Assembly (NCBI GenBank): GCA_022496205.1
Contig: WTXD01000145.1
Span: 1 to 28,386 of the forward strand
Direction: 5' to 3'
Length of the DNA: 28,386 nucleotides
DNA from: Gloeopeniophorella convolvens
Lineage: Eukaryota; Basidiomycota; Agaricomycetes; Russulales
Part shown: in pieces, positions 6,901 through 28,386 of the stretch
How the letters are laid out: each line of letters begins with the position of its first letter
How positions within the stretch are numbered: position 1 is the first letter of the stretch
The notes under the pieces: model-generated
The model's input: the letters and a program-made list of their open reading frames with translations, nothing else
Told to the model about the DNA's origin: nothing
Database searches by the model: none
Translations under genes and position numbers: made by a program

Positions 6901-7935
6901 TGGACAGTCAACGGGTGGCGCAAGGTCCCAGAGCTGCCAAGTAGGCTATCCACGAGATACATCTACTTCTTCGAGGGCCAGAAGCAGGAAGCAGTGCAGA
7001 CGCCGGGCATCTGTCCCAGTTAACGGGGACAAGCCGGCGCATCCCAGTCTCCACGACCCCATTTTGAGTCTCGAGCAGAGAAGGCGCGAATGTTCCTGAG
7101 GTGGAAAGCCAAAGCGGGCGAGAGAATCGAGACGGATGGTTCCTGGAATGAGGGGCTCACTTGATCAGGCTCGTGCTTCAGCGGGTCACCTGCGCGCGGA
7201 CTTGACAGTCGTGGGACGAGCGAAGCGACTGCGCAGTGAGACGCGGGCGAGGAACAGAGCTGGTTGCCATGGGATAATTTAAGGGTGTGGCCGTCGTCAC
7301 TCGCATGTTATCAGGCCATCGGGACACGCAGTCTGCTGGGTGCGACCATGGTGGACTGGTGGCGCGCTCATATCGGTCACGTTCGCTGTGGTCAGGGACA
7401 TGGGCTCGGGAAGCACCGCTTCTGACTGCGTGACGTATCTGTAGCATCTTTTCGACTCAGTCCAGGAGTAACCTGTCACCTAATTTGTTCAAAACTGCCA
7501 ACCGTACTAATTGAGCTCACCTGATAGTTTGCTTTATTTGTGGGAGGCCGGCGAGATACTCCCATGGATGTACGCCAACTCACAGACATACTGAATACCA
7601 GTTGTCAAGAGGTGGGCCGTGGCAAACGGACTCATGCGGTCGGCGGTACAGTGCTTGTCACCGACGTAGATAGCGCCCTGAAAGTAACCACAACACCATG
7701 GCAAGGTTGATGTAAAATTTTGTAAGGACCAAAGCTCTATCTCCGCTGCTTTCCTGGAGGGTGCACGATTGTGGTCATGGGGCGTATCATCTCCACAAGT
7801 CTCGCACGTTTTCAAAGATACAGTTTAAGCTTTTATTTTACGCCCTGTGTGAAGCAGCGTCTTTCAAATGAGCCCTCGGAGGCGAAGATGTGCGTGCCTT
7901 GGACAGGGGAAGCTTCTTGAGCTCTGATCTTTCTC
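3957..7935. other. About 4 kb with no supportable gene
   Basis: Open frames here overlap on several strands and lack recognisable motifs or conserved-looking composition. Two spots are worth noting. On the minus strand 6118-5950 there is an exon-like segment after a CATAG acceptor that encodes a hydrophobic helix (DHIVVTAAAISAVMLIARSL) and ends at TAG 5952-5950. On the minus strand about 7690-7590 a frame reads GAIYVGDKHCTADRMSPFAT between a plausible acceptor and donor. Neither could be extended into a gene. The stretch may be a degraded gene region. Confidence 0.4.
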
Positions 7936-8140
7936 TCAGTAGAAATTCAAGTTCTCTGGCTCAGGAGAGCGAGCCTCCAGATTCGGCACATGAGCAAGGC
8001 CATCTGTAGAAAATAATCAGGGGAACTCAGCGCTGTGGGTGGCGCAACTTGCATTCGATAGCAGTCGCGGGACGGGCGGCAGTGACGGCTGCCTGCAGCA
8101 CAAGGACTAAGATAGAAATAGAGGCGACGAGGAAACGCAT
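7936..8140 (-). CDS. Small secreted peptide precursor P1
   Basis: Exon 1 is 8140-8053 and exon 2 is 8003-7936, giving 51 residues. MRFLVASISILVLVLQ begins a clear signal peptide with cleavage expected near VTAA/RPA. The only donor that keeps the phase-1 pattern of its sister genes is GCAAGT at 8052, so the 49 nt intron would be of the GC-AG class with acceptor CTACAG. Exon 2 encodes a 21-residue acidic peptide ending ENLNFY. A GT donor at 8048 is possible and would instead give a 44-residue product ending GGSLS. The element at the position of its sisters' TATA box (about 8218-8226 on the minus strand) reads TTTGAAAAGG, so the promoter looks decayed. Function is unknown; placement in the family rests on architecture. 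Confidence 0.55.
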
Positions 8141-8996
8141 TCTGTTAGATGGCAGAGGGTGAACAAGGCGCTGATGGGGGTTCCCGAGTAGAACAACGCT
8201 CCGAGGTGCGGCCTTGCCTTTTCAAAGGGCTGGCTAGACGCCCTAGTGCCTGCTATGGGGGTCACCGTAATTGATCAGTGATGGGAAGCGCGTCCGAATA
8301 AAGCTTCGACCTGTCTAGAGATATAGACACGACCTTTCAGGTAAGACGTATAAAACGTGTTGTTTTGGCCCCACGAGTGGCGGTATCGCTACGACAACCT
8401 TGGTTCGAAAAAAAATATGGGGAGGCACGCGCGCACGCACGTCAGGCCTCCAGGACGCCGACGTAGATTACAGCACGTCGCCCAACGCCTCCCGAGGGAG
8501 TGGTTGTGATGCCGGCGGTCTCTTTTGCGAATGTCAGTTTTGAGGCAGCAAATCGCTGAATACATGATGAAGTTGAATGATGAAGCCGGTGGCCGGTGGT
8601 GGTGGTTCGCTTTCGCTCGCTTTCGGATTGGTCCGGATGTCGGACCGGGACTGCGGTATGCGGGATCTGCAACACGCAACGTCCGACTACTCCGAGCCTG
8701 GCCGAAGCGCCGCCGCGCTCTGCGCAGGGGCGACTTGTCCCGTACCCAAAGGACTCGGACTTATGCTCGAGACCCAATAAATATCAATGAGGCGCTCTCT
8801 GAAGAAGATAGCGTATTGAGATGCATTGAGTCCAAAGCACAGAACCTCTCATTCACGCGCTCGGAGTCGCAGGCTTGCTTCGCAGCCCGGTCCACGACAT
8901 TCCTGCTTAACATCCATCCAACCCTGAGATCCTCTATGTATCCTTCTTGTATACGAGCGGAAGGAAAATACCTGTCGAAGGCAAGGCAGAGGTCGG
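8141..8996. other. Intergenic between P1 and P2
   Basis: Only low-quality overlapping frames are present. I see no second signal peptide, tRNA or repeat. Confidence 0.4.
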
Positions 8997-9189
8997 TTAC
9001 TTGTGGGCTGCGATGAAGTTCGCTTCAAGAGGCCGTAAAGGTCCAGCTGGGCCGCAAAACGTCAGGAGCAAGAAGATACGAGTGAGAGGATGCGAACGGA
9101 CTTTCAGCATCAGCCTTCGGACTAGTTGGAACTGCCATGACGAGGGAAGCGAGAACGATGAGGATAAATGTCACTGAGTAGGTGCGCAT
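8997..9189 (-). CDS. Small secreted peptide precursor P2
   Basis: Exon 1 is 9189-9102 and exon 2 is 9046-8997, with a 55 nt intron (donor GTCCGT, acceptor GCCCAG), giving 45 residues. MRTYSVTFILIVLASLVMA is a textbook signal peptide followed by VPTSPKADAE. As in the sister genes the intron is phase 1 directly after the Ala-Glu codons. Exon 2 encodes GPLRPLEANFIAAHK, a short basic C-terminal peptide with no cysteine and no CaaX box. Without splicing the frame would still run 54 residues, so the intron is inferred from donor, acceptor and family pattern. TATAAAG lies 78 nt upstream of the ATG. No homologue is recognised. Confidence 0.65.
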
Positions 9190-9266
9190 TTTCGTGGCTG
9201 TATAGAAAGCTGATCGGATGCGGTGGCCTGGTGTTTGGAACCCATGTAAAGCGAAGGCTTGAGATA

Positions 9267-9273
9267 CTTTATA
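9267..9273 (-). promoter_or_regulatory. TATA box of P2
   Basis: Minus-strand TATAAAG, 78 nt upstream of the ATG at 9189. Confidence 0.55.
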
Positions 9274-12032
9274 CTCGGGAACCTGTGGAGGATGTGGAAG
9301 ATTGTTGGCGGGAATGTTGGGACGTCGGAAGGATACATCAGATGCGCCCGTATTCAGCGCGAGAATGTCGAAGACAGCAAATGGCGGGGCATGAACAGAT
9401 TAAAGACGCCCGAGCACGCTGCGTCCAGACAGTTGGGTGGAGCGGGGCCCATATGGTGTGCGCAATCGGGTTGACGAAGGTATGTTGAGAAGAGCTGAAT
9501 ACCTTCTCTAAATTAGAATCCCATAGTAAGTTGCAAGGATCAGATTACTGGAGTGATTTTATCGTAACGAGGCTTATAGGAAGTCAAAGTTGCAAGGACA
9601 TTCGACCGTTGTCTATTGCAAGAAGCCAGTCCTGATAAGATATGTTGCGTTTTACGTCTTGCATTTCGAATCCCATGAGACATTATGCGGAATGATTGGA
9701 GGACTACGATAGCCAGGTAAGGGCGCTCAGAGGGACGATCTTCCTTTGCTCCGACGGAAGAGACCGCGACAAACATGGGTGATAGATAATTATAGACAGA
9801 GAACAACGAAAATTTGATCCATGTAAATGTTTGAGGGTGGTGAAGAAGCAATTAGTTGTTCTACGGGATGAGCGCCACGATAGTAAATGGGTCCACTGGG
9901 CGTTGCACAGGAAGCGGGAGGATTGAATGTCCACTAGTCTTCCCGGCGAGCGAGATCTTTCCAGCCCCCAGAGCCACCGGGTAGGACTTGGAGTTCTTGA
10001 GATAAGTCCGTATGTGCATCAGAAACGGCCCAGTCGGCCTCCAAGTTCCGAGGAATCCCAAAAATTACTGAGTCAGAAAATAAAACGAGCTTTAGCACGG
10101 CATCCTGAGCGTTTTCCAGGCCAGTATCCTGGCGGAAATCCTTCGGTCTGCACGACACGCAAGCGAGTTGAGTCGGTTAATTGAACCAGAGCGACCAGAG
10201 CGCGGGTAGCGAGTCGAAATTATCGGAGTCCGTCTATGATATGAGTGGGAAACTGAAGGTCGCAGCAACGGCGCTAGCCACCCGAGCCGCCGGTCGGGCT
10301 GGTCACGGGACCTTCTCGCTTCACCTCATTTACCGGCACTCCCGGGTGACGCGAATCAGTGATCAAACGCTCATCATCATCTCGCCAGCGAGCTCGTCGC
10401 TCGTCGCCGTGACTCCATACACATCCTCCAGCAAGCCTTCCGCGACTCTTTGACTCTTCCCATGGAACTCCACAGGTTTTCTCTGCTATGCGCTCAATGT
10501 CCTGCTACCATCATGTTGTTGCATTAGAAGGTCATGCTATTTTCAGCAGCGCTACTGGGCCATGCCCACCATTATGGCCCACCATCCATGGCTCCTCCCT
10601 GCTCCTTACATACACCATCCGCGGTGGGCGTCGCACTATCCTCCGTACTGGTGGCTTCGTTCAGATGTGCAAGCCTGGCAGTGCAGGGCTATGAGTGATG
10701 ATCTCGCTGGAGGCTGGCCATCCCCGTGGCTGAGCTGTCTGCCTCCATACAGCGCGGTAGATAGATGACACTGGGAGCCCGAAACCGTTGCGCAGATCTT
10801 TGCTGATCATCCATCATGTCTTCCTATCCGCTAACGTGGGTTTCGTTCTCATGAGTTGTACCTCGGCTGACCCTGATTCAACGAAGAAGACTAGGTATTC
10901 TTGACCATCTTGCGCTTCGTGACGCCTCCTCTTTGGATCACCGCATTTGTACGACAGAGTCAGCTCTTTCGTTGTGAGTTAGATGGAATGAAAATACGAG
11001 GGGTGCGCTGGTATGACCCGTGCCTTGCGTGGCACTGTCGACACATGCATGTAAACAAGCGGTCCGAAGCAAGCTTTCAATCTACTCGATCTCTGTCAAT
11101 ACCCTGTAGAGTCCGCGGGGTTACAGATTGTACCTATCTACACGCAGATGATACCTGTGGCTCGGTCGAGGGGCTAGGGTTCATGGGAATGGGTAACCCC
11201 GCTCAGCTGGGCTGAGCACCTTCTGACTGCTGAAGCGCTGATGGACCGTCGTGTCAGTCAGGGCGAGCGGCGACATCGGATTGTTGGCTTATCCCGTCAG
11301 GCACCGCCCAGCAAAGAAGTGATCCTCTTTCATTTTATATTTCTCAATTGATTAGACCGTACAAACTAATCTCAGGCCTTCCCATTCCGAGTCGTATGTG
11401 GCCCGACGTGCCATTCTGTCTGACAGTCATGACAGTACGACTTCAAACCAACTTTTAACCGTGGTGCTCGCCTCCGGACAAATACGTAAGTATACTGGGA
11501 GGACCCATGGACGCCCCGGAAAAACCTATCAAGTGGACCTCTGCAGCGTTCTATTGGACCCGGGACCAGCTCCTCCTCTTTGAATATGAGATACTATAAG
11601 AGCACTTCTTCGACGTGTGATACTTGATGAACCATCGGTCTCTCGTACACAGGTGACCTGGCTTCGACACTTCGAGCGCCCAAGCGCCGCAACTTACCCA
11701 GGTGCGTATCATTCGCTCCCACTTGGTCTGTCACTGAGGCCAAGACTTGTTTTGATAGTGGGTTGTCTATTTTTTCCTCGATGCGCTCAACGCCCGACTC
11801 CGCGACAGGATTCATATCCAGATGCACGAGGCGTTGCCCACTTATCGGTGGGCGTGGCACGTTCACACGCCGAATGATGGCCACCACATTGGGGCATCAT
11901 CCGCACGATTATATGCGTACTTAAGAGCCAGTCACTAGGGGAGCGTGGTTCTCACCCCATCCTCGGCGTCTTGCCATCCACTGCCGTGCGCGGTACTGCA
12001 GCCTCACCTACTTCACGAGCTCGTCCGCCGCC
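9274..12032. other. 2.8 kb with no supportable gene
   Basis: Several overlapping frames of 60-105 codons occur on both strands, but none shows a family motif, a signal peptide or a consistent exon series. A minus-strand frame at 9851-9540 is the longest in AT-richer DNA and remains unassigned. Confidence 0.4.
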
Positions 12033-13478
12033 ATGTCCGACCAGGCTGCTGAGATCGCCGCGTTGTATCTCTCGTACAAAACGGCGGTGTATGACAACTT
12101 ATTCGTGGGGATGGTATTTGGTGAGTGCATAGATATCTTATGTTGGCCGAGCTTATTTGTACCATTAGGGGCATACGTCGTGCTCTATGCCGTCTCGGTC
12201 CATATACTTCTGTAAGATTCACTCCTTGATCAAAAAAGAGAACGTTCTCACCTTTCGGTTGCGACGATAGGAGGAAGCCTGGGTTCCTTTCCTCGACACC
12301 AAGGCTTTTCATGTTCGGCATCACGACCTTCATGTTTCTCCTGTCAATCATCGCGCTCGCGCTGGAAACAGCACTGGGGTTGCAGCAAATTATTCTTCAG
12401 CTTAACCCTACAAGCGGAGGCATCTGGTCGTCGAGTCGCACCAATGTTATCATTGCTGTCGGCGCGACTATCACACGCATCATGGTGGGCACCCCCATTG
12501 CCCATACTGCACCGACACTAAGTAGGAAGCAATATAGTACATCCTCAGCGACGTTGTCTGCGCCTGGCGTGCTGTCGTGCTATGGAACAGAGACAGACGC
12601 GTCATCGCCATTCTTTTACTCTTTATTCTCGGCACTATGGGTGCGTATGGGTCACCGAGGACGTTCATTATCCACTTATCGAATCTCCTGCTTCTAGCTG
12701 CCGCTGGATCCGATCTCGGTCTTAGCCTGGTCCCTCTGTTCAACCCATCCCACCAAAGCATCCAGGACTCTAGCAATACCAAGCTTGGAGAGCGCGCAAT
12801 GATCATGGTTGGCCCGACGTTGGGCACGAACCTGCTCTCTACGGGACTCATCGCATGGAAGGCTTGGTGCGTGTTGGCGGATCCTTTCCGCCTCGTTCTG
12901 ATCACGCCTTCTTTAGGCAACATCGCGTTTCCGTCCGGAAACACTTGGGCGATGGAAGCGCTCCCATCAGGGTTGAAAAGATTCTCGCGCTGCTCATCGA
13001 GTCCGGATTTGTGTACTGCTGCCTCTGGGTGAGTCCTGTCTATAGTGGGAGAATCTATCTCGGGGACTTACGGCGCCGGCGCAGATTCTATACCTCATCT
13101 CAGCTTTCCGCGTGTTCCCCGAGCCCGGATTCACCATTATGGACGCTGTCTTGCTCTTCGCTTCGGTGAGTTCCGCGGACGCTCCACGGTTGTCACAGGG
13201 CCGGGCCGCTGACGCTGACTCGTGCTGTGCAGGGATTGTACCCGACCCTCATCGTCATCCTGGTCTGTATGCAGAAGAGCCCTGTCGACTACTACTCGAC
13301 CTACTCGACTGGGATCCAGTTCGCGACTGTACCGGTAGTCGACACGCAGAAGGCAAGCGTCGTGCAGCAACAGCAGCACATATACTCCATCCGCCGCGAG
13401 TACCTGTCTGACTCTGACACGCAAGTACCGTCTGCAACGTTCGGGAAGGCGTTAGATGGCAGTGAAAAGAGCGTGTAA
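12033..13478 (+). CDS. Seven-transmembrane protein of the expanded Agaricomycete family
   Basis: Eight exons join cleanly: 12033-12120, 12169-12211, 12271-12484, 12538-12640, 12698-12866, 12917-13028, 13085-13165 and 13233-13478, giving 351 residues with every intron 48-67 nt. The N-terminus is short and outside-type (MSDQAAEIAALYLSYK). Seven hydrophobic helices follow: VGMVFGAYVVLYAVSVHILL, FGITTFMFLLSIIALALE, a third ending in ILSDVVCAWRAVVLW, VIAILLLFILGTM, a fifth around MIMVGPTLGTNLLSTGLIAW, a sixth around VYCCLWILYLISAF, and a seventh around LYPTLIVILVCM. The SDxxxxWRxxVLW motif at the end of helix 3 is typical of the large, functionally uncharacterised seven-helix family of mushroom fungi. 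It is not a Ste3 pheromone receptor by its pattern. A hydrophilic C-tail of about 60 residues follows. The gene converges on the amidase gene. Confidence 0.85.
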
Positions 13479-13742
13479 TCCACTGCTGGAGTCCAGCTGT
13501 TATATGTACCGAGTGCGATCTACACCGTCGCTCATTTGTGTAATCTTCAAGTCTGTCTCACGTCGTAGTCTAGGCTGATATTATTATACGAATAACATGG
13601 CATCTACCGGTTGTCCTGGCAGCTCCACGGAAGTCGAAAATACATGGACCGAATGTGAAAGGAACGGCACTAATAGTTGTAGGTTATAGACGCCAGGTAT
13701 GTTGCCATTGGGCAGACCGCGCTGGTCGCTACATAATAAAGC

Positions 13743-15957
13743 TCAGCTAGAAATTCCCGTCTGTTTGCTTGGCTCCCACTCCCCGGGACCAAACCCGCGC
13801 GGCCCCAAGGCGTCATCCACAACATGCATCATGGCAAGGACGCGCTCCTCCTCCCAAGGGCGCCCAACGATCTGTATCCCCACAGGCAAGCCATGCATCG
13901 CCTTGGGGTTGTATGCGCCCTTTGGCCCATACATGTCCTTCTCGATGAGCTTCGAGCCCGATCCTGGGCCGTTGCGCCATGCATCTGACAACGCATCCTT
14001 CTCCGCGTCGACGCGAGTGACGGGAACAACGCCGACCGGGCTGTCGACGATGTTGTACAGGATGGTGGCCGCAGCAAGCGGTGAAAGAGTGTCGCACCCG
14101 CCGTGCGGTACCGCAGGCAGGGCTTGTACCGGGGCCAGAATCGCGTCGAAGGTTTGTCCGTCCGCTTGTGGGCCCCAGACCGCGGCACGCCAGCGCCGCT
14201 CGAATGCGAGTTTTTCAGCGGTGAGGTCGTAGTATTGCCTCACGGGTTTGACGTGGGATCGGGATAGCAAGCGCGCGAATATTTCATCACCAACAAAGGT
14301 ACGGGCAACCCAGCCAACCAGCGAGAGAACGAAAGCTATGGTCGCAGTCAGAACGAACGTCATAACTCCGAGCGAGGAGACAGGGATAGACTTTGCACGC
14401 ACAGGGAAGTCTTGGTCCGAGCGTCACCAAGAAGAGAGTTGATTCCTGTTGAGAACGCATAGTAGGTGAGACGTGAATGTCACAAGTTCTGAGGAGACAA
14501 AGTGTACCTTCTTATCTGGCCCCAAGTGAGAAAGCATCGTTTTGTAGCCGTCCGCTGATGTTAAGGAAGTGAAAAGCTCCATTGCGTGCAGTGCTGGAAT
14601 GGAGAATCAGTAAAGGTTCCAGCGTGATATTGTAAGTCGTACGTTCTGGTGGCTGAAACTCGATACATTCATGCCCGGCACCGCGCAGTTTCTCGACAGC
14701 CTCTAACACTGCGCGTTGGCACGCTGGAGAACCCTTCACAAGACCATCTGTAACAATTCTAGTCAGCACTATGGAAACGTAAATGTGGATCATCCAACCA
14801 GAGAGATAGTACGCGAATCTGAGCTTCTGGGGGAGCTCAACGTCGAGATACGGTATAGGTGGAGGGAACTGAGCGTCGCCGCGAGCGCCAAATAGGACCC
14901 TCGCCGCGAGCTCTAAGTCTGCTACCGAACGAGCCAGCGGACCTGAAACAACATCTATAGCCTGGAAGCCAGGGTTCGGGTCTGGCGAGGCTAAGTCAAT
15001 GACATGAGCAACGTAGAGCGATTATTACGCACCCCTGGCCCCTTCACAAGAGATGCGCCCGTGCCCGGGCTTGAGGCCGTATATTCCACAGTATCCAGAA
15101 GGTGTACGAATGCTGCCACCGATGTCCGTACCCATCCCGAGCGCTGATCCGTCTGCAGCCAGCAGAGCCCCTTCGCCACCCGACGAGCCGCCGCTCGTAT
15201 GTGCGGCGCTCCATGGGTTCAGCGTGCGGCCCCAGAGCGGGTTGACACTCTCGAACGCAAGCATGGTCTGGGGAACATTCGTTTTGGCGATCAACACCCC
15301 ACCTGCAGCTTTCAGGGTGGCATAAATCTGTTGGTGTCAAGTCAAAATTCATCTTGAATTGGTTCGGCCGCAACGCATATACGCACGACCGAGTCCGAGG
15401 TAGCAGGCTTGTTTGCCCATTGGGTATAACCAATGGTGCCGTCATACCCGGCCACATCAACTGCGGGTACGTCAGCCTATATGATGACCTCAACCGGCTT
15501 GGTAAACATACATAGGTCCTTGAGGCTAAACGGCACACCATGCAGCGGCCCCCGCAGCTTCCCCGTTGCAGTGAAATCTCGGTCCAGCTCTCGAGCCACC
15601 TCACGTGCATCATCGAAGAGGACTGCAAAAGGTTGATAGGGCTGGACTCTACAAAGAGAGCAATACGCACTTTCGGTCAGGCAGTTCGTCGCAGCATGAG
15701 CCTGTGCCGCGCGAGCGATGTACGCTTCTACTACCTCCGCCGCCGTCCACTCTCCTTTTTTGATTCGTTGAACGATTTGCGTCGCTTTATCAAGGTTGGA
15801 ATGACAGGCACACATCGCAAAACCTGAGAAACGGACCTGTGGCATCTGTGAACTGCTTGTGTTCAGGTTGGAAAGCTGAAGCGCTCGCCAGCGCATCGGC
15901 GCGCTCCTTGAGCTTCTTGTCGATGATAGGACGGGCCGAAGATTCGAAAGGCCACAT
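13743..15957 (-). CDS. Amidase-signature hydrolase, fatty acid amide hydrolase type
   Basis: Ten exons give an uninterrupted 574-residue protein: 15957-15837, 15784-15671, 15622-15512, 15460-15387, 15327-15033, 14981-14799, 14747-14643, 14593-14508, 14445-14403 and 14335-13743. The amidase signature fold hydrolyses amide bonds with a Ser-Ser-Lys triad, and all three are present. Lys113 is in GPLHGVPFSLKD, Ser188 in TSGGSSGGEGALL, and Ser212 in GTDIGGSIRTPS. The 24-residue spacing of the two serines equals that in mammalian FAAH (217/241). Length and C-terminal motifs (TILYNIVDSPVGVVPVTRVD, GLPVGIQIVGRPWEEERVL) match fungal FAAH-like or acetamidase-like proteins. The start MWPFESSARPIIDKKLKERA is typical of them. 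There is no N-terminal membrane anchor. The natural substrate cannot be read from sequence. The donor of intron 6 (GTTGGA) is unusual but is forced by the protein pattern. Confidence 0.9.
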
Positions 15958-16486
15958 GCTGAAAACGGATGAGAATCAGGCTCAATGGAATACTTAGTCC
16001 TCCTTGTGCAATGGGAAGGATCGTGCGGATCGTGCTCGTCTCTGCGGTTGAAACGTTGAAAGTGGGAAGCTGAGGACGCGACCGTGACTACGCGTATTTA
16101 ACTGGTCTACCGCCGAAGTCCCACGCTTCAAGCGACGGTGCGATGCTATTGAGTATGCCAGCCCTGAAGGATATGTGAAGTTGATATACTTAGGAGTTGA
16201 TACAAGGCCCTATTAGCCGCGGATGGTGGTGAGCCGCAACCTCGCGCCGAGTCTGAGTCTGGCCAGCCGCGGCGCAACAAGGCGGGCCGAGGCTTGGTGC
16301 GCGTGCAGGCTCGATCGTCCGGATGTGAGCGCTTGTCATCCCCAGTCCAAGCCAGTCCAACCTCGCCGTGACTTATAACTTATTTACAGGAAGCACGGAA
16401 TGAAGCTCGTTCGTGGACATACTCAGTATGTGACAAGGTGCATCCATCTCCCGTCTGTTGGAACCCGGCGCGGCAGGCCCGGTCAC
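15958..16486. other. Amidase upstream region
   Basis: No gene is seen. A short GC-rich stretch at about 16240-16330 separates the amidase promoter from the duplicated P3 segment. Confidence 0.4.
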
Positions 16487-16644
16487 GTCCACCAAGTTGA
16501 CTAGATTTTCATACATGATCCACAACCTTCCACCACAGAACATGGTAATTTATTCGAGCACAATTTCCAGCACAAGTCCAGATTCTTCTTTCAGTTAGAC
16601 TTCAGTAGGTTCCCCACATCCTCTGACTCATGACCCGGGGCACT

Positions 16645-16852
16645 TTACCATGGGTTATCAGCCACTCCGTCCGACCAAGGTCCGTCCTTAACGGGAGCAA
16701 CAGCGGCCGCAGCTAATACGGGCGACACACGTCAGTAGGCAGCTATGGCAGCTTCAGTGGAGACACTCACCCTCAGCACCTTTGTAAGGAGCAGGCGAGG
16801 CAGCCGCAAGGGCGATGACGGCGAAGAAGAAAGAGACGAAGAGGCCGCGCAT
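16645..16852 (-). CDS. Small secreted peptide precursor P3 (duplicated with P4)
   Basis: Exon 1 is 16852-16771 and exon 2 is 16712-16645, with a 58 nt intron (GTGAGT ... ATTAG), giving 49 residues. The leader MRGLFVSFFFAVIALAAA is a strong signal peptide with cleavage expected before SPAPYKGAE. The intron is phase 1 after Ala-Glu. Exon 2 encodes a 21-residue peptide that starts AAAVAPVKDGPW and ends VADNPW. There is no cysteine, CaaX box or dibasic site. TATAAAG lies 82 nt upstream. The paralogue P4 shares the whole of exon 1 and most of the intron, but its exon 2 diverges after AAAV. Function unknown; a RiPP-type precursor or a plain secreted peptide are both possible. Confidence 0.75.
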
Positions 16853-16933
16853 GTTGAGTGTTAGTGGTAAGAGATGAGGCGTGCTCGAGTCAGGTGTGAC
16901 CGGTGCTGAGAGTGTGAAGGTGATGGCTCTGTC

Positions 16934-16940
16934 CTTTATA
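16934..16940 (-). promoter_or_regulatory. TATA box of P3
   Basis: Minus-strand TATAAAG, 82 nt upstream of the ATG at 16852, flanked by CTGCAGCA as in P4. Confidence 0.6.
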
Positions 16941-18064
16941 TGCTGCAGAGTGTACAGTGTAGCATATTCTATGCAGGACTCCGGAGAGATAGCACGGAAG
17001 GAGAACTCGAGCAAACGATTGAACGCTAGGAGCCGCGCTATCTCATCTCGTACCAAGAAGTTCCCAGTGTCAGTACTAGATGGTAATAGCATAGAAGAGT
17101 GAGGAGTGAAGGCCGCCGCGGAGCCGCCCATACAGCTTCCTTTCAATTCAGCGAATAGTCCTTCCTCACGTCCAGGAGTACGCGGTACGAAGCCCGATAC
17201 AGTTCAGACAGCCAGAGTGCACGTGGCGGAGAAACTATGGCGGCGTGACTAGAACGTGAGGACTATGCATGACGCCGCACTAGAGTCGACCCCCTTTATC
17301 CAACTTGATGGACTTTTCCGCCAGTGACCAACCTCTTCTGCGAACTGAAAGGTGTGTGAATCATCGAAGTCGCCGAAGCATCGAGGACGTCAAAGGCGAT
17401 GTTAACGCAGGGAGGCGTTCCGTATGCCAAGCAGGGGCTCATAAACTGCAAGCCAAGCACATAGACATTGTATAAGCCAAAAAGATGTCCTGATACCGTC
17501 GGACGATAGGGGCGGCGTAGCCGCCTGCGCGAGGAGAGAGGAAGAGAGTTCGGGCGCTTACCCCATTACCTTCCCGGCCCGTCAGGTCTACGCTATGTGC
17601 CCGTAATATGACCCTGCCGTCCCGTGACTCTGCCCTTCCTCGCCTCGAGATTCCTATTCCAACGACCAGCAAGTTTAATGGAAAGGCGAGATAAACGACT
17701 GTGTGTTGTGACGAGAACCTGGGATACTGCACTACGATAAGACAGTAGAGAAGCAGGAGCGAAGCAGGCGGGCGGGCCAGCAGGAACAGTCAGTGTCATT
17801 GCACAAACGGCTGTTGACGGTAGAACGTCCGGTTTTCTATTCTGGCAGGGTGTGTTGTGCGTATTACGATGCCGTGGTCGTAGGAGAGAACGCAACCTTT
17901 CTGAGAGAGATCCTGAGGATTGATAACCATTAGAACTTCATCAGAACAGTGCGTCCATCGAGGCGGCTATCAGCCACATTGCCTAGCTATCGTCATTATG
18001 TATATGCTGAAAAATTGGCCCCCAGTAGGAGCAAAACGTTTGACTCGCCTCGAGGAAAAGAAAC

Positions 18065-18632
18065 TTAAGAGCCGGACCGGTGGCGCGATAGCGGGCGAGA
18101 ACGACGCGAGCGAGAGAGCGAGAGCGCGGACGCGACAAAGAGAAGGCGCGTAGCGACAATGGGGACCCCAGAGGCGATGGTGCTGCAGGGCTCCCGACTT
18201 GCCTGCCGCCGCTGAAAAGAGGATCGTTCCGGAGGCCACCCCCCAAATGGCGATCCCCGGGAAAGTGAACCGTGCAAACTCGTCTCCGCGCGAGATTCGT
18301 GCGTATTAATATTAGGACTTTGCGCGGCATGTACGAATACTAGTACAATCAACTCACCTTCGTCCAAAGCGTCTTGTAGGTCCTCGCCATCCCCCAGCGC
18401 GTGTAGCCGCCGTCGCTTAGGAGATGCCGAAGGGACATCTTCTCTTGCATGTTTTTGTGTAGCGAGCGCGCGCGCGCGCGTTGGCGGCGCTCGTTCTCTT
18501 CGTCTGCTTTCCGCGCAATTTCTTGCTCTAGATGCAACCGTACGGTTCTCGGGAGCTGCAAGAGAGGTGGATCGAATGGCATGCACCCTTGACAGTCACA
18601 GTGACGGGGATGAAGTCGTACTTGGGCGGCAT
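18065..18632 (-). CDS. Hypothetical charge-rich small protein
   Basis: A three-exon model (18632-18594, 18555-18358, 18211-18065) keeps phase 0 throughout and gives 127 residues. It starts MPPKYDFIPVTVT. A strongly charged helix follows (HLEQEIARKADEENERRQRA), then the conserved-looking SLRHLLSDGGYTRWGMARTY and KTLWTK. The last exon encodes a hydrophobic stretch (GVPIVATRLLFVASALSL) and an Arg/Ser-rich tail. Exon 2 has the best coding character and ends at a perfect GTGAGT donor. Exon 1 uses a weak GTCAAG donor, and intron 2 is 146 nt, so the ends are tentative. No family is recognised. The gene sits between the two copies of the P3/P4 duplication on the same strand. Confidence 0.5.
18466..18480. 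repeat. Alternating GC dinucleotide tract
   Basis: A 15 nt run of alternating G and C lies inside exon 2 of the hypothetical gene and encodes part of an Arg-Ala repeat. Confidence 0.8.
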
Positions 18633-19031
18633 GGCGAGGATGCGAGGTGGATATGACTTGGGGGCTACAGCAAGGTCGCGACTTCGCGAAACCGGTGGAC
18701 TACGGCCCCTTGGTCCTTGAAGCTTGAGTGACCGAGCCTGCCGCGCCGGATCTCAACGTCAACAGGCTAGCGATGAATGCATCTTCCGTCACATAGGTCC
18801 ACGGACGAGCTTCATTCCATACTCCCTTAGAACAGTTGATTGAAGTCACGGCGAGCCTGCATTATGCATGCGCACCACACTGGATATCATCGATCGACAA
18901 TTCCGGACGGGATCTATGACCGAATTGTTGGAATGTGTTTCGGGCCGGGTGTTAAAATAAGCTGGGCGTACTTTCTCAGCACGTGGAGAGGTCGCGTCGC
19001 GCAAACTCCGGGAACGAAGGCCCGCGAAGCG
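18633..19031. other. Spacer between the hypothetical gene and duplicated copy 2
   Basis: No gene, RNA or repeat is seen here. It probably holds the promoter of the 18632 gene and the 3' flank of P4. Confidence 0.4.
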
Positions 19032-19201
19032 CGTCTACCAAATTGACTACATATATTTTTATGCATGGTCCACAACCTTCGCATGGCAATTCATTCAACC
19101 ATAATTTCCTACACCAGATCTAGCTAACCAGACTGTTCTTCCAGTCAGACCTCAGCAGGCTTCCCACATCCTTCGGCTCGTGGCCCGGGGCACTTTCCCC
19201 A

Positions 19202-19394
19202 TCACCACGGGGCGGAGACGACGCTGTCTTCAACAGGAACAACAGCGGCCGCAGCTAATACGGGCGACAGATGTCAGTAGGCAGCTATGGCGGTTTCAGT
19301 GGAGACACTCACCCTCAGCACCTTTGTAAGGAGCAGGCGAGGCAGCCGCAAGGGCGATGACGGCGAAGAAGAAAGAGACGAAGAGGCCGCGCAT
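19202..19394 (-). CDS. Small secreted peptide precursor P4 (duplicated with P3)
   Basis: Exon 1 is 19394-19313 and exon 2 is 19254-19202, with a 58 nt intron, giving 44 residues. Exon 1 is identical to that of P3, so the leader is the same. Exon 2 begins like P3 (AAAV) and then reads VPVEDSVVSAPW before TGA. The mature product is therefore shorter and more acidic than P3, although both end in Pro-Trp. TATATAAAG begins 81 nt upstream of the ATG. Conserved leader with a changed C-terminal peptide is what one expects of a precursor family under diversification. Confidence 0.75.
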
Positions 19395-19474
19395 GTTGAG
19401 TGTTAGTGGTAAGAGATGAGGCGTGCTCGAGTCAGGTGTGACCGGTGCTGAGAGTGTGAAGCGATGGCTCTGCC

Positions 19475-19483
19475 CTTTATATA
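19475..19483 (-). promoter_or_regulatory. TATA box of P4
   Basis: Minus-strand TATATAAAG, 81 nt upstream of the ATG at 19394. Confidence 0.6.
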
Positions 19484-20427
19484 CTGCAGAGAGTCCAGTG
19501 TAGCTTATTCCATGCAGGACGAGTCCGGAGAGATAGCATGGAAGGTAAACTCGAGCAAGAATTGGACGCTAGGAGCGGCGCTACCTCTCCTCGGTCGTGA
19601 TGCCGTACCAAGATGTTCCCAGGAAAAGTCGATGGCAATGACATAGAAGAGAGAGGAGCGAAGGCCGCAGCGGGGCCGCAGACACAGCTTCTTTCCGGTT
19701 CAGCGAACACTCCTTCCTCGTGCTCGGGAACGCGGTCACACGAAACCCGGTACACTTCAGAATGTCAGAGTGCACATGACGGAGAGACTATGGTGGCGTG
19801 TACTAGTCTGATTCGATCCCCTTTGTCTGACGTGATGGGCTTTCTCCGCCAGTGACCGACCCTTTCTGCAGGCTGAGGAGCGTGGGATAATCGAAGTTGC
19901 CGAAGCCATCAAGGACATCACAGGCGATGCTGAAGCAGGAAGACGTTCCGTATGAGCAGGGGCCCAGAAGCTGCAAGCCAAGTACATAGATATTGTACTA
20001 GCCAATCAAACTTCTTGATACCGTCGAGTGACCAGCACGTTATACTTTCAGAGGGGAGAACAGCAAGTCCGATGGAAAGGCGAGGTAAGACTGCGTGGTA
20101 TGCACGTTGAATACCACGTTACGATAAGAGAGTAAAGAAGCAGAATCGAAGCGGTAGGAACAGTCGATGTCATTGCCCAAATAGCTGCTGGCGATGGAAC
20201 CTCCAATTGTTGTACTCTGGCAGGGAGTGTCGTGCGTAGTACAATGCCGCGGTTGTAGGAGAGAACCCAACCTTTCTGGACGGGTTCCTGAGGACTGGTC
20301 ACAAACCAAGGGTCTTGAGCCAGCAGAACAATGTCGCGTCCTTCGAAATCGCTGTCAGCCTACATCGCCCAGTTATCGCCCTTATGTCTGTGCCGAAACC
20401 TTCGGCCCCAGTAGGAGCAAAGCATTC

Positions 20428-20941
20428 AGGCACGGTCGTAAGGTGATGGGGCTTCGGAACTCCCGACTTGTACGGTCACTTCGGAGACAAAAGGTGCGTA
20501 TACGTGAATCCAGCCACAGATTAGTACGTACCCTTGCAGAAGGGGACCGCCTGGAAGAATCAGTGGTCGAGCTGAATTGAAGTGCCAAAGCTTGCGGGAA
20601 CAAACATTTACGTAAGCAGGGCCCGCTCCTCGCACGTGACTCGGGCAAAGCGATACGGTTGGGAGTCAAGTCCGACCTCGATGTCGTTCCGGACTGCCCT
20701 GAGCTTGCACACAGCTATACTACCCACAAAATGCTGCGAACGACTAACCCATCACATCGATCGACACCAGTAACGCGAACAATGACCAAATTATTGCACA
20801 ACGAAATAGTCCATTCCGACCAAGTACCCATAACCACTGACGACGGGTCTTACAACAGCTTTCGGTCAATGCGCTGCTTCAATGGCTTGCGCATCCCAGC
20901 TTCTGCGGCTCTCGCTCATACGACACGCCGGTTTACTGCAT
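20428..20941. other. Intergenic between copy 2 and P5
   Basis: No supportable gene or repeat beyond the end of the duplicated segment. Confidence 0.4.
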
Positions 20942-21146
20942 CTACTTCTTGCCGTTCACGGCGAAGAATCCAGTCTCCTCAGGCTCGGCCATGGCAGCTG
21001 GGAATACTCTTAGTATCTTCATGCTGAGCAGGCGGATGGCGCTTACCACGGGCGACTTCCTCAAGGGAACGAGAGGGCGCGGCAACGACACCCTGCGCAA
21101 GTGCGAAGAGGGCAGCGAAAGCGAAAGAGAGGGCAGAGTAGCGCAT
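20942..21146 (-). CDS. Small secreted peptide precursor P5
   Basis: Exon 1 is 21146-21047 and exon 2 is 20997-20942, with a 49 nt phase-1 intron (GTAAGC donor, branch-like ACTAAG, acceptor CCCAG), giving 51 residues. The signal peptide MRYSALSFAFAALFALAQ ends near VVAA/PSRS. The propeptide-like linker SLEEVAR is followed by exon 2, AAMAEPEETGFFAVNGKK. The C-terminal part shares Ala-Ala and a Pro-x2-E-x-Gly-Phe-Phe pattern with P6. An Arg just before the exon junction and the terminal Lys-Lys could be processing points. A TATA-like element lies 89 nt upstream. Family unknown. Confidence 0.7.
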
Positions 21147-21234
21147 GATGAGTAGGAGGTACTGTGGCAGGTTGCAGGTTCGCCTGAGTTGATGGTTGGA
21201 TGCTAAGGCTGCGCCATTGATGAATGTCTGAGAG

Positions 21235-21241
21235 TTATAAA
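21235..21241 (-). promoter_or_regulatory. TATA-like element of P5
   Basis: Minus-strand TTTATAA, 89 nt upstream of the ATG at 21146. It is a weaker variant than in P2-P4 and P7. Confidence 0.4.
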
Positions 21242-22306
21242 CTCTTCGTCAGACATCATAGCATCGTCAAATTCAGCTCCTCAAGAAGGTTATATTGCAC
21301 TCCCGTAGCATCCAACGATTTCTGACAAAGATTCCTACTCCGCGTACCTCCAAGCGAGCCCAGGGTCAGCCCAATGTCAGCTCTGCTTAACACTATTGGG
21401 CTGTGTTTGAGTACTTCTGCAAGGCACAACGCAGACGCTCAAGGGTTTTGGCCCTTTTTGGCCTCAGGATCGGAGAGCCTATTGGTTTTCCCGCAATAAC
21501 TACCGGAGAATGTGAACTTGCGGCAGTATGTCTCGCAGAGCCTGTCTGTGGACTGGTGGCGTCAGGTCAGGTCCTGAATCATCGGTGTTGCACATCGAGG
21601 CCGGAATAATGGTAGCATCAATCGCGCTGATGGGTGCCTCTACAAGCACGAGGCTCGTGACCCCGGGATCTGCGTAGAGGCGGGGGCGTTCCAATATGCG
21701 GACTTGCGGAGGCATACATGCCGGTAATTGCTTGCAGTGCCAGCCCAGTGCTAGGGTTTCTTCATGCTCGCAAAGCAGTCCGAAACCAAGAGAAGATGAG
21801 GTCAGGGTTGGTCAGGGTGGATGCAATTTACAAGCGCGACAGAATGACATACAGACCAGACAGCCCTGCTTACCCCATTGCGCGCATCCCACTCTTCGTC
21901 TTCGCGATCGGGGTGGATCGCTGCCTGTTGTGCCTGATCGCGGACCCGGCACAAAGGAGACTGAGGGTAAATGCATGATGCGTTGCACAAGGCCGCACAT
22001 TTGAAGCTAGCGTCAACGTTGGCAATCAGGAGAAAACACATGAGGGTGTGCGTGATACGATATGATAATCTTTCATGGACCGTCTCCCGGTGCGTGGGCG
22101 AACATAGCAACATCGTAACAATGGCAATTTATCGCAAAAGGACAACAGTACGAAGGAAGGAAACGTCTCGTCGCTGGCACGTGGGACGCGGTTCACCACT
22201 GGCTCTTATAGATTACAAAGCTGGCCAAGGATGCCATTCTCCGCGACTTCCATAACGGAACAAGGATTCCGAGGCACATGCGCGGATCAATAATGTGCGT
22301 TTGGAC
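21242..22306. other. About 1.1 kb without a supportable gene
   Basis: Overlapping frames on both strands at 21700-22250 include short hydrophobic stretches, but no consistent exon chain or known motif was found. Confidence 0.35.
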
Positions 22307-22555
22307 TTAGGCTGCCGACCTGGCAGCCGGGAGAGGCGGCAAGGCGGAGAGGATGTCGACGAGAGTAGGCGGGAAGAAGCCTTCAAAGTCAGGCTGAACT
22401 GCAGCAGCTAGAGAGAATATCAGCCAACTATTGCGGACGGTATTCATTGAGACTGGCGCACCGAGCTTTGCGTTAGACAAACTCTTGAAAGGAGCGGCGC
22501 TCGCTGTGCAGGCGCACGCGATCAAGGTAAAAACATACAGGTTTGGTACGCGCAT
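22307..22555 (-). CDS. Small secreted peptide precursor P6
   Basis: Exon 1 is 22555-22462 and exon 2 is 22407-22307, with a 54 nt phase-1 intron (GTGCGC ... CTCTAG), giving 64 residues, the longest of the set. MRVPNLYVFTLIACACTASA is the signal peptide, then APFKSLSNAKL. Exon 2 reads AAAVQPDFEGFFPPTLVD and continues with a Leu/Pro/Ala-rich end (RSAA). Because the intron length is a multiple of three, an unspliced 82-residue reading is also open. The splice model is preferred because it restores the Ala-Ala-Ala-Val junction seen in P3 and P4. TATAAAA lies 64 nt upstream. Confidence 0.65.
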   Translation of the reverse strand: MRVPNLYVFTLIACACTASAAPFKSLSNAKLGAPVSMNTVRNSWLIFSLAAAVQPDFEGFFPPTLVDILSALPPLPAARSAA

Positions 22556-22618
22556 GATGTTGTTGGCTCTGAGAGTGGACAGGCTCCGCGTTCGTGGCCT
22601 CTGCGCGTTTGAGACGAG

Positions 22619-22625
22619 TTTTATA
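22619..22625 (-). promoter_or_regulatory. TATA box of P6
   Basis: Minus-strand TATAAAA, 64 nt upstream of the ATG at 22555. Confidence 0.5.
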
Positions 22626-23335
22626 TTCGTGAAAGCGGTTCCTGATAGCTTTCCGTGCGTAGAGAAGCAGAGTGGTTCTATGCGAGAATCGTCGAAGGAA
22701 GCCGCGATGATGCTCACGCCGGGCGATCACAAGTTGGTTGGTACTGATGTGGTTGGTGCTTCTTCCATCGTTCGTAGGTGGGGCCAAAATGTTCGGACAA
22801 CACTCGGACCTGAGCTGAGCATGATGCTGGGGAGCGCTTGAGTGCACATCCATTGAAGCGAGAGCAGCGTCATGGAGAGTACCCACAAACCTGAAAACGT
22901 GGATACCGCAGACCCGCGGTTATGACTAAGAGGCTGAAGATCATGGGATCCATCACTCCTTGAAACAAGTAGCACTGGGTAATACCCAAGCCAGCGGTAA
23001 AGAAACCAAGAGTATGCAAATGACCTTTGTGTAGGCGAAGGCAACGTTGATGGGAAGCCCACAGCGCCAGTGGTGGGCAGAAGAAGCCCGGCATAACGCG
23101 CGCTTCATTGCGGGAAGATCCAAGTATACGACCATCGCGGCAGTTTTCAATTCGCTCGCAGCTTCCTTCGGAAACGCAGATCAAGATGAATATGAGACGA
23201 ATGAGCGAGGGTGCATCCATTACATGATAGTGGAAAGCGACACGATAATAATAGTGACAGTGGTCCAACGAAGCCCGTAGAATCTCGGGGTGCCCAAGTA
23301 TATTCCTATTCCCAACATAATCCCCAGCAGAGGCA
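22626..23335. other. Intergenic between P6 and P7
   Basis: Minus-strand frames here contain scattered hydrophobic runs, including MPLLGIMLGIGIYLGTPRF starting just past the P7 stop. They break after 30-60 codons, and I could not build a gene from them. Confidence 0.35.
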
Positions 23336-23536
23336 TCAGTGATGCTCAGGGAAATGGTCAGGTTTGGCCGGCTCTGGCTTTGGCTCTGGAAGTCCGACAC
23401 GTCAGAGGAAATACCCCGTTTCAAGGAGGATCAACGAACCGGCGGCGACGAGTTTGAAAGGCGCGAGGGGCGCTGCAGACACAGTCTGCGCGACAGCAAG
23501 AAGAGCAATGACGAAAGAGATCTGAGTGAAGCGCAT
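23336..23536 (-). CDS. Small secreted peptide precursor P7
   Basis: Exon 1 is 23536-23440 and exon 2 is 23385-23336, with a 54 nt phase-1 intron (GTTCGT ... TTCCAG), giving 48 residues. MRFTQISFVIALLAVAQTVS is the signal peptide, cleaved near SAA/PLA. The linker is APFKLVAA, close to APFKSL in P6. Exon 2 encodes PEPEPAKPDHFPEHH, a proline-, glutamate- and histidine-rich C-terminus that could bind metal. TATAAAG lies 83 nt upstream. No cysteine and no CaaX box. It is the member nearest the UstYa-like pair, about 2.1 kb away. Confidence 0.7.
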
Positions 23537-25634: not shown

Positions 25635-26280
25635 TCATGGAAATGGAAGAGAGAGATTGCCCACCTGCTGCTCCGAAACCCATTGTGCGTATTCCTGTTG
25701 GTTCTTCTCGAACTCTTGATAGACGCGTCTCCAATCCACGCATTGATGCGTGTCGGCACGGACCTCTGCCTCACCCTCCCTTCCAAGCACCGTGTCCAGC
25801 GAAAGGTCCGCACGACAGAGCACCATCTGACGCATATAGTTCAAGCAGTGCCGGCTGAGCCTGAGGTCCTCTGGCGGGAGCTCCCCAGCGATGTCGCGCC
25901 TGATGACGTCCAGGCAACGCAGCTGATGGAACAGGGAGATGCTGAACGGCTGGCGGTCTGGGCCGAGGTGGAGGATGCCATCGTTGGGGGCGAGCGCGGC
26001 CCACTCTGCGTCTGCGTCCCGGCCGGAAATTTGGAAGTGGGTGGTCGGCTCGATCGCCATGCGTATGGGCGGGAGGTCACCGACGTCCCAGGTGCGTGGG
26101 TAGTCAGACCCGATGTAAGCTGTCGCGGTGTGAGTCTAGTGTGTACGATACATGACTGCGGTACTGACTGTGCGTGTCAGGCGGGGTAACATGCAGCTTT
26201 GTCCGCAGGAGCGCGATGCAGCCCAGCTTGATGAGCAAGCATAGAGAAACTAAGGTGATATATCTCGAGCCGGGCTTCAT
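25635..26280 (-). CDS. UstYa-like (DUF3328) protein with degenerate HxxHC motifs
   Basis: Exon 1 is 26280-26169 and exon 2 is 26119-25635, with a 49 nt intron (GTCAGT ... CGACAG), giving 198 residues. A single N-terminal membrane helix (ITLVSLCLLIKLGCIALL) is followed by the family hallmarks YIGSDYPRTW, a THF segment, EWAAL and GILHLGPD. UstYa-family proteins oxidise or cyclise secreted peptides and other metabolites, and carry two HxxHC motifs thought to be catalytic. Here the first reads HQLRC (102-106) and the second LSRHC (125-129), so one histidine is missing from each. NYMRQMVLC follows as usual. It may be a non-catalytic partner of the divergent neighbour or have changed chemistry. The start was chosen for its helix. 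The C-terminus is ordinary for the family in length. Confidence 0.85.
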
Positions 26281-26648: not shown

Positions 26649-27456
26649 ATGCTCAGCCACCGGCAGACAAGCATCGTCCTCGTCCTCGTAGCCCTCCTCA
26701 GCGTCGCGTCCATCTTCCTGACCCACTCGCTGTATGTCTTCGTGCGCAATGTTCAATTTGGACGGGCTGTTATGGTCAAGGAATACAGTCAGTGGCCCGT
26801 GCATATTCGGACGTGCTTGCTTCGACTGACCAACGGCCACTCGACAGGCATGCAGGGCGACGACACCCCTCCATTCTTCCCTCTGACGCTGAAGAGGAAA
26901 CTCCGGATGGTAGTGGAAGAGACTGAGCATTACGCGCCGCACGGACCAGGCGCAAAGGACGAGTGGCGCTTCGAGATGGGGTTCGGCTTTGACGGCGCCG
27001 GTCGCGTCGGCTCCGACAACCGGACGTTCGCCGTCGCGCTCTACCACCAGGAGCACTGTCTGCGCTACTTCCAGACAGAGCTCACAGACCACTCTCCGAA
27101 CAAGAAGGACTTCCCGCACCACCACCATTGCTTCGACTATCTGCGCCGGGAGGCGCTGTGCCACCCCGACCTCACGCTCGAGCGTGGAGACTTCACGAAG
27201 CGCGACTTTGACGTGGACCGCGAGGGCGCGACGCACGTCTGCCGCGACTTTGAGACAGCCTGGGACATCAACACGGACAATTGGTTGGGCTGGTATTACT
27301 TCTTGAATTCGACGCGTCTGCCCAGTGAGTCCCACACGTTTCTTATCTGCCATCCGTGTCTGAGCGCGATGCCCCGCTCCTGCAGCGTACCCAAGTCTGG
27401 ATTTTGACTGAAGCGTATTTGATTGACAGTCTGTATTTTTTCGTACAGATACCTGA
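26649..27456 (+). CDS. UstYa-like (DUF3328) protein with intact HxxHC motifs
   Basis: Exons are 26649-26787, 26848-27324 and 27449-27456, giving 207 residues. Intron 1 is 60 nt with a CTGAC branch site and would leave the frame open if retained. It is included because it joins VKEYS to MQGDDTPPFFPL as in the family. The protein has an N-terminal membrane anchor (SIVLVLVALLSVASIFLTH). A VVEETEHY segment, a DEW motif and NRTFAVALYHQEHC (HxxHC at 113-117) follow. The second HxxHC lies in HHHHCFDYLRREALC (137-141), and the end is a Trp-rich LGWYYF. Both putative catalytic motifs are complete. UstYa relatives act in the secretory pathway on ribosomal peptides in dikaritin clusters. The first in-frame ATG of the open frame (26565) was rejected because it puts a charged extension before the anchor. 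Confidence 0.88.
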
Positions 27457-28073: not shown

Positions 28074-28386
28074 ATGTGGCGCCGCAGCTACCAGGCCTTA
28101 CCACAAGACAAGTCGGAGGAGGACTTCACCAACTCCGAGTCTTCATTGGATTCCGGTACTATATCTCCCCTCGATCTCACATTGCGATGACATCCTGACT
28201 CAGTCCCTCCAGTGGTTTTGAGCAATAGGACCAAGGCGCTCCTTCGTTACGGCTTTTTCATCATCGCCGTCTGCACCGTCTTTGACGCCCTCCTCCTGTT
28301 GGTCCTGGGCTACCGCTACGCCAAGGCTACCTGGTACCCGCTCGACCCGGACAAGCTCGAAACACCAAGCACGTACATCAACTTTG
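28074..28386 (+). CDS. N-terminal part of a single-pass membrane protein (partial)
   Basis: Exon 1 is 28074-28155, then a 48 nt phase-1 intron with a CTGAC branch site, and exon 2 runs from 28204 off the window. The first 90 residues start MWRRSYQALPQDKSEEDFTN, continue with an acidic cytosolic segment, and reach a membrane helix YGFFIIAVCTVFDALLLLVL. TWYPLDPDKLETPSTYINF follows on the far side. This layout matches a common uncharacterised Agaricomycete family of type II membrane proteins with a TYxxxDxLY-type luminal start. It could be mistaken for another UstYa-like protein, but the diagnostic HxxHC part would lie outside the window. Function unknown. Confidence 0.6.

Follow-up and report, generated by a model that had tools for sequence, protein, structure and literature searches.

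What does an array of miniature genes in a mushroom genome make, and which enzymes act on its products? The question is raised by P1–P7, seven predicted genes on the minus strand of contig C52 of Gloeopeniophorella convolvens (Russulales), a stretch of 28,386 bases within a 36.7 Mb, 404-contig genome, which we analyzed as a whole and refer to as the window. What we observe are the structure of these genes, selection acting at the level of the encoded proteins, partial relatedness within a wider family, and physical linkage to genes of the UstYa family (PF11807, DUF3328); by analogy with known systems, we infer the action of UstYa proteins on the peptides, the role of a leader, the processing and the chemistry. 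We put the probability at roughly 0.52 that P1–P7 encode one-core precursors whose small, secreted peptides undergo modification by UstYa enzymes, which would make them a basidiomycete counterpart of the dikaritin precursors that is devoid of Kex2 repeats.

The models of P1–P7 were each rebuilt from the sequence (Table 1). An earlier note on this DNA, which had proposed a single shared gene architecture, is borne out in this respect: each of the seven genes was found on the minus strand within the coordinates it gave, starts with ATGCG[CT] (7/7), is interrupted by a single phase-1 intron of 49–58 nucleotides (nt), and ends after a second exon of 15–32 residues. The first exon encodes a predicted signal peptide, recognized by sequence features as a hydrophobic core with a small-residue, cleavage-like end (7/7). 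Cysteines are absent from all seven exon-2 parts and no member ends in a CaaX box, and the proposal that they are neither cysteine-rich effectors nor prenylated pheromones is supported. The limit of seven genes proved incomplete, as the family extends well past the array, and the note had omitted two UstYa genes next door, which are the most specific functional lead.

The nearer of these two UstYa genes lies 2.1 kb from P7. Gene A displays an N-terminal hydrophobic helix and both HxxHC motifs in intact form (HQEHC and HHHHC). Gene B, the 5′ part of which up to 26280 follows the reading of a listed open reading frame (ORF), has altered histidine motifs, HQLRC and LSRHC, instead of HxxHC, and a B-type paralogue on contig C370 (90.3 kb) carries HQLKC and LARHC; given these alterations, gene B may encode a partner protein and not a catalyst. 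By best translated match, the UstYa genes on contigs C366, C268, C370, C18 and C7 form pairs of two subfamilies. Across the genome, PF11807 yields 19 exon matches on ten contigs, corresponding to nine loci once haplotypes are merged; one further, weak place emerged on C8 in a tblastn-type search (E 0.06). The UstYa-bearing contigs thus number 10 of 404, with ~3.6% of the bases, and harbor all 17 of the matches (E<=10) returned by five genome-wide exon-1 protein searches, a count that includes self and haplotype matches and comes from a search that scores the best candidates only.

Contig C366 carries a second copy of the window region, which we take to be the other haplotype: mismatch between C52 and C366 is mostly 0–4.8% per 500 bases, rising to 8% at 6.0–6.5 kb and to 10–17% at 16.0–19.0 kb. 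In the gene counts given here, haplotype copies are counted once. Together with the sister genes on C366, this copy provides evidence that P1–P7 behave as real, albeit predicted, genes. Across six allelic or paralogous pairs (P3, P4 and P5 versus their own alleles, and 92760/30499, 96102/27162 and 89892/31772 on C366), the ratio of non-synonymous to synonymous change (dN/dS) is 0.30 (Fisher p = 3e-9), with synonymous change at 55.75 of 213 sites versus non-synonymous change at 56.25 of 630. P3 compared with its allele points to weak constraint (pS 0.27, pN 0.16), and P4 compared with the P3 allele (pS 0.28, pN 0.17) was not added to the total, as its genes already figure in those pairs. Two family members have counterparts in nr, both being predictions by others and not transcripts: P6 as BC834DRAFT_974008, with identical 64 residues and an identical splice, and the C370 relative at 48.9 kb as BC834DRAFT_974135, the 57 residues of which are identical to the model built here. 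Of the 16 genes tested, 12 have a TATA[AT]N box between −115 and −50 (6/7 within the window; missing in P1, 25547, 30499 and 31772), against 6–7% of random 65-base stretches, and the resulting p = 1e-11 overstates the case because related genes are not independent.

With settings fixed after the seven genes were known, which makes its result weak when taken alone and gives more weight to the independent support above, a strict scanner for the P1–P7 architecture (phase 1 only) recovered the seven genes and nothing else from the window, and gave 1 match in total across ten Markov-1 random windows. A looser scanner (any phase) gave 9 matches in the window versus 37 in 20 Markov-2 windows, or 6 versus 4 when a TATA box was also required; the background for the scanner comprised these Markov sequences and the UstYa loci without members. 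That P1–P7 are chance ORFs or gene relics would sit well with their shortness, the absence of most of them from the annotation and a scanner tuned on the seven themselves, but the dN/dS, the two matching public models, the TATA boxes and another 17 genes with this architecture make this very improbable.

In total, the family comprises 24 genes at four loci, all of which are on UstYa-bearing contigs (Table 1). Every one of the 19 script-built models, three of which represent copies on the second haplotype, has a phase-1 intron (49–60 nt), the phase being partly so by construction since the scanner required it; for C370 and C268, the five and three models, respectively, were drawn up by visual inspection and have introns of up to ~67 nt. 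In several members (C366:30499, 31772, 89892 and 92760; C268:107070, 109722 and 111561), a GTAAG/GTGAG-type donor follows soon after the stop codon, which suggests that the 3′ untranslated region of these predicted genes is split by an intron. The earlier claim that such genes are missed by annotation is largely true: when the protein collection was searched with the family, queries A1 and A3 matched one annotated protein each (P6 and the C370 relative, respectively), both from Gloeopeniophorella convolvens, and search A5 (P5 with C366:96102) matched none, with each search using at most 100 words, so that annotated members may have been missed. As such genes are rarely annotated and few words were searched, the lack of a match outside Gloeopeniophorella convolvens does not show absence elsewhere.

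Table 1. Predicted members of the peptide-gene family and other predicted genes of the window (positions with no contig prefix are those of the window)
Feature	Position	Strand	Details
P1	8140-7936	minus	49-nt GC-AG phase-1 intron; exon 2 YGLAHVPNLEARSPEPENLNFY; no TATA box in -115..-50
P2	9189-8997	minus	55-nt phase-1 intron; exon 2 TGPLRPLEANFIAAHK; TATA at -84
P3	16852-16645	minus	58-nt phase-1 intron; exon 2 AAAAVAPVKDGPWSDGVADNPW; TATA at -88
P4	19394-19202	minus	58-nt phase-1 intron; exon 2 AAAAVVPVEDSVVSAPW; TATA at -89
P5	21146-20942	minus	49-nt phase-1 intron; core PEETGFFAVN; TATA at -93
P6	22555-22307	minus	54-nt phase-1 intron; protein identical to BC834DRAFT_974008; TATA at -70
P7	23536-23336	minus	54-nt phase-1 intron; TATA at -89
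UstYa-family gene B	25635..26280	minus	PF11807 (DUF3328) 50 bits, cut-off 25; profile match at 25.6-26.1 kb
UstYa-family gene A	26649..27323	plus	PF11807 48 bits; may continue in a further exon
Three further genes	C366:89892, 92760, 96102	plus	Downstream of the UstYa pair on the second haplotype
Sister cluster, six genes	C366:18529, 20261, 25547, 27162, 30499, 31772	minus	32 kb from P1
Five-gene tandem array	C370:48.9-53.7 kb		
Three genes	C268:107.0-111.6 kb		
Multi-exon membrane-protein gene	12033-13478	plus	Several hydrophobic segments by eye; between P2 and P3
Amidase gene	13743..16000 (limits approximate)	minus	PF01425, three exon matches; between P2 and P3

The members fall in part into groups with a recognizable leader and core. 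In alignment A3, all eight C370/C366 members share the leader PL[SNT][FLM][ED]EK[LI]E, and seven of them the core [SA]P-x-x-x-[IV]-Y, the exception being C370:52.5 with STDADIY. In alignment A4, the other group, which includes P5 and P6, has the core P-[DEN]-x-x-G-F in 8/8 members of that type, with the core of P5 being close to PDE[SN]GFFAVN of C366:96102 and C366:27162. A genome-wide search with the leader pattern yields 9 matches, which are confined to three UstYa-bearing contigs (C41, C366 and C370), against 0 in a reversed control. The first core pattern gives 6 matches (control 0), of which 5 are known members or their allele and one, on C135, is taken as chance; the second gives 4 (3 known and 1 on C346) and is weak as a genome-wide signature because its control gave 3.

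To characterize the cores more broadly, we examined 24 exon-2 parts, drawn from 23 of the 24 genes plus the P3 allele (30499 was omitted as a near copy of 92760). An aromatic residue (F, Y or W) is present in every one of them, and tyrosine in one of the seven window members (P1). A P-x(2-4)-aromatic motif, picked after viewing the sequences, is found in 16 of 18 non-redundant exon-2 parts (six near-duplicates dropped; missing in P3 and C370:52.5) versus a shuffled mean of 4.8. A single cysteine occurs in 1/24, as opposed to the paired cysteines of small secreted effectors, and P5 alone has a dibasic pair, at its end. A C-terminal CaaX, the mark of mating pheromones, is present in 0/24 genes by inspection of the proteins, and the script-built models show no internal repeats, of which Kex2-processed repeat proteins have at least three.

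Two further sets of observations bear on the link to UstYa proteins. C366:26113-34276 and C366:87596-97160 constitute an inverted segmental duplication, the four longest pieces of which are 73–83% identical; both copies contain an old-yellow-enzyme gene (PF00724) along with three peptide genes. Each of the two C366 clusters owns a UstYa A gene, with the UstYa genes lying outside the collinear block; queried with the A gene of the sister cluster, the best match beyond its haplotype copy is gene A of the window (53%; next 37–40%). On C45, at 7383–7718 of the plus strand and ~5.6 kb from two UstYa genes, there is a predicted Kex2-type repeat protein with three copies of a 19-residue, KR-holding unit (PQSQKGADWRRTAEDIKRD), the only convincing case in a repeat scan of the sequenced stretches examined. 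Its core is unrelated to the window peptides; its exon 1 has a form like that of the one-core genes, and it has a 54-nt phase-1 intron. By its gene form, though not its sequence, this predicted protein connects the one-core genes with a known type of precursor.

On this basis, we propose a mechanism modeled on what the consulted portions of PMC9233826 and PMC12048977 describe for UstYa/UstYb in ustiloxin formation. The signal peptide encoded by exon 1 would send the precursor into the secretory pathway, and a short leader encoded by the same exon would be recognized by the membrane-anchored UstYa pair, A and B. Exon 2, following the phase-1 intron, would supply a single short, variable core with a proline before an aromatic residue, which the UstYa-family oxidases would cross-link or otherwise oxidatively modify, and which would then be released by proteolysis. 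Diversity of products would arise from many divergent one-core genes, not from one many-repeat gene. More tentatively, and at somewhat less than even odds, we suggest a basidiomycete class of UstYa-modified peptides, featuring arrays of one-core mini-genes, a conserved recognition leader, a two-protein UstYa pair and some members (P3) with strongly diverged alleles.

The divergence at P3 is confined to a block at 16201..18800, in which the haplotypes differ by 8.6–27% per 200-bp window, against 0–6.6% at 13.4–16.2 kb, 5.0–8.0% at 18.8–19.4 kb and 0–5.3% at 19.4–23.6 kb in the flanks. The two P3 alleles share the terminal W, their leaders and cores being different. Among the seven genes, strong allelic divergence is seen in P3 only, and the predicted proteins of P1, P2, P6 and P7 are identical across the haplotypes. 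P4 is a paralogue of P3, with 37/53 aligned bases identical in exon 2; on C52 their exons 1 are identical (82/82), a match that points to local conversion within this haplotype. The divergence of the block may be due to balancing selection, to introgression or to conversion.

Several observations weigh against UstYa modification of P1–P7. As a rival reading, these may be linear signalling, antimicrobial or effector-like secreted peptides that are not UstYa substrates and came to lie near UstYa genes via fast-evolving genome regions. Five of the nine UstYa loci have no one-core member in the 10–20 kb read around them: C101, C18, C7 and C388 lack a clear one, and C45 has the repeat protein instead. 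On C370, likewise, 20 kb of sequence surrounding the UstYa genes hold no member, the peptide array being ~29 kb away, and this locus alone is free of selection bias because the other three are the window itself or were sought near UstYa genes. UstYa-type proteins are also known from pathways without ribosomal peptides. The old-yellow enzyme does not serve as a general cluster marker, as it is found at both C366 clusters and also on at least ten other contigs; the family is common in the genome, and none of its matches lies on the C370, C268 or C45 contigs. P1, P2, P3, P4 and P7 are tied to the family more by architecture and place than by sequence (e.g., beyond itself and its haplotype copy, exon 1 of P7 finds, among the candidates scored, only the C366 allele of P5, at 52% and E 0.18), and one-core genes devoid of Kex2 repeats fall outside the definition of dikaritins. 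The case for linear peptides draws on the five UstYa loci without one-core members, the distance on C370, the tiny size of the peptides, their tandem duplication, the variable exon 2 and the membrane-protein gene inside the array at 12.0–13.5 kb. Against it stand the confinement of the genome-wide matches to UstYa-bearing contigs, the co-duplication with an oxidoreductase, the recurrent aromatic core and the first-exon form held in common with the Kex2-type repeat protein of C45, and we regard linear peptides as a possible reading that is well short of an even chance.

A further conceivable function is that of pheromone-like precursors, which are trimmed at XA/XP dipeptides (e.g., EA-AA-AV-AP) by a dipeptidyl aminopeptidase and act on a receptor, with the P3 alleles as recognition variants. 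XA/XP runs were indeed seen by eye past the signal peptide in P3, P4 and P7, and such signatures are known in some basidiomycete Kex2 repeat proteins according to the part of PMC6339444 consulted. This function would also provide a role for the diverged P3 block, but that divergence is not shared by the other six genes; moreover, there is no CaaX, the sole dibasic site in exon 2 is that at the end of P5, and the window ORFs that were scanned give no pheromone-receptor match, all of which renders it unlikely. We retain modification by UstYa enzymes as the preferred reading of P1–P7.

A few other features and candidates were considered. The predicted membrane-protein gene within the array gave no Pfam match above cut-off for the two of its ORFs that were scanned. 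A putative third UstYa gene at 28.07 kb (28074–28386, plus strand), with a UstYa-like N-terminus, is cut by the window end and runs on C366 to ~85.1 kb; it has no HxxHC motif by eye and was rejected on the length seen on C366. The AlphaFold model of gene A has a mean pLDDT of 45, with the N-terminal helix visible in an otherwise low-confidence model, and was too poor to be used for a fold search. Of 15 PDB sequences matched by the single protein at E<=1, the top ones are designed or propeller-like chains ('Cake', 'Bagel' and a cell surface protein); we take these matches to be spurious, and a PDB search with the UstYa alignment gave none. Matches of the relaxed scanner in the window at 22944 and 3729 (both minus strand) were rejected, having phase-2 introns, no TATA box and no family sequence, and two matches of the strict scanner outside the window were not counted, C366:23233 for want of family sequence and C18:22107 for its unlike sequence.

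If real, the proposed class would reveal the substrates of the UstYa proteins found in mushrooms and would explain why repeat-based searches yield few precursors there, as a small, intron-split and repeat-free gene form would escape such surveys. If confirmed, it would offer concrete substrates and a rule for searching other genomes, namely a signal peptide, a leader, a phase-1 intron of ~50–67 nt and a P-x(2-4)-aromatic core near a PF11807 gene. UstYa-family genes do exist in mushrooms, with 16 in Pleurotus ostreatus as given in the consulted text of PMC8893723, and the products of the predicted peptide genes are candidate substrates of the family in this group. Among the open-licence papers listed by searches on basidiomycete UstYa/DUF3328 precursors, no title or abstract mentions such a family.

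How, then, does this family compare with known systems? With the dikaritin precursors (ustiloxin, phomopsin and asperipin-2a, with UstYa/UstYb), it shares a secretory signal, nearby UstYa (DUF3328) genes and short cores holding an aromatic residue, a candidate for the cross-link, and it differs from them in having one core per gene, several different genes per cluster and a basidiomycete host; Kex2-separated repeated cores are absent from the one-core genes and were seen only in the C45 repeat protein. Owing to the absence of these repeats, we do not file the one-core genes as dikaritin precursors, though they may work alike. The small secreted proteins and effectors of Agaricomycetes are likewise small, secreted, fast-evolving and clustered; the window family is much shorter, has at most the single cysteine noted above in its exon-2 parts, and is UstYa-linked. 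Dikaritins are placed among ascomycete peptides in the section of PMC9233826 consulted. The Kex2-processed repeat proteins (KEPs) of Basidiomycota resemble the family in their signal peptide and short secreted peptides, and the C45 repeat protein has the first-exon form of the one-core genes; KEP surveys differ in demanding both repeats and Kex2 sites. In one such survey, 103 of 1680 KEP genes in Basidiomycota are reported near DUF3328 genes, and its author considers, in the portion consulted, that the cyclisation motif may differ between phyla or that Basidiomycota hardly cyclise (PMC7329392). A parallel in the lack of a repeat precursor beside UstY genes comes from the UstY clusters of lichen fungi, which are those of Ascomycota and for which the consulted part of the study reports no precursor family of the window form; there, too, no repeat precursors were found beside the UstY genes, and a single core peptide was raised (PMC12048977).

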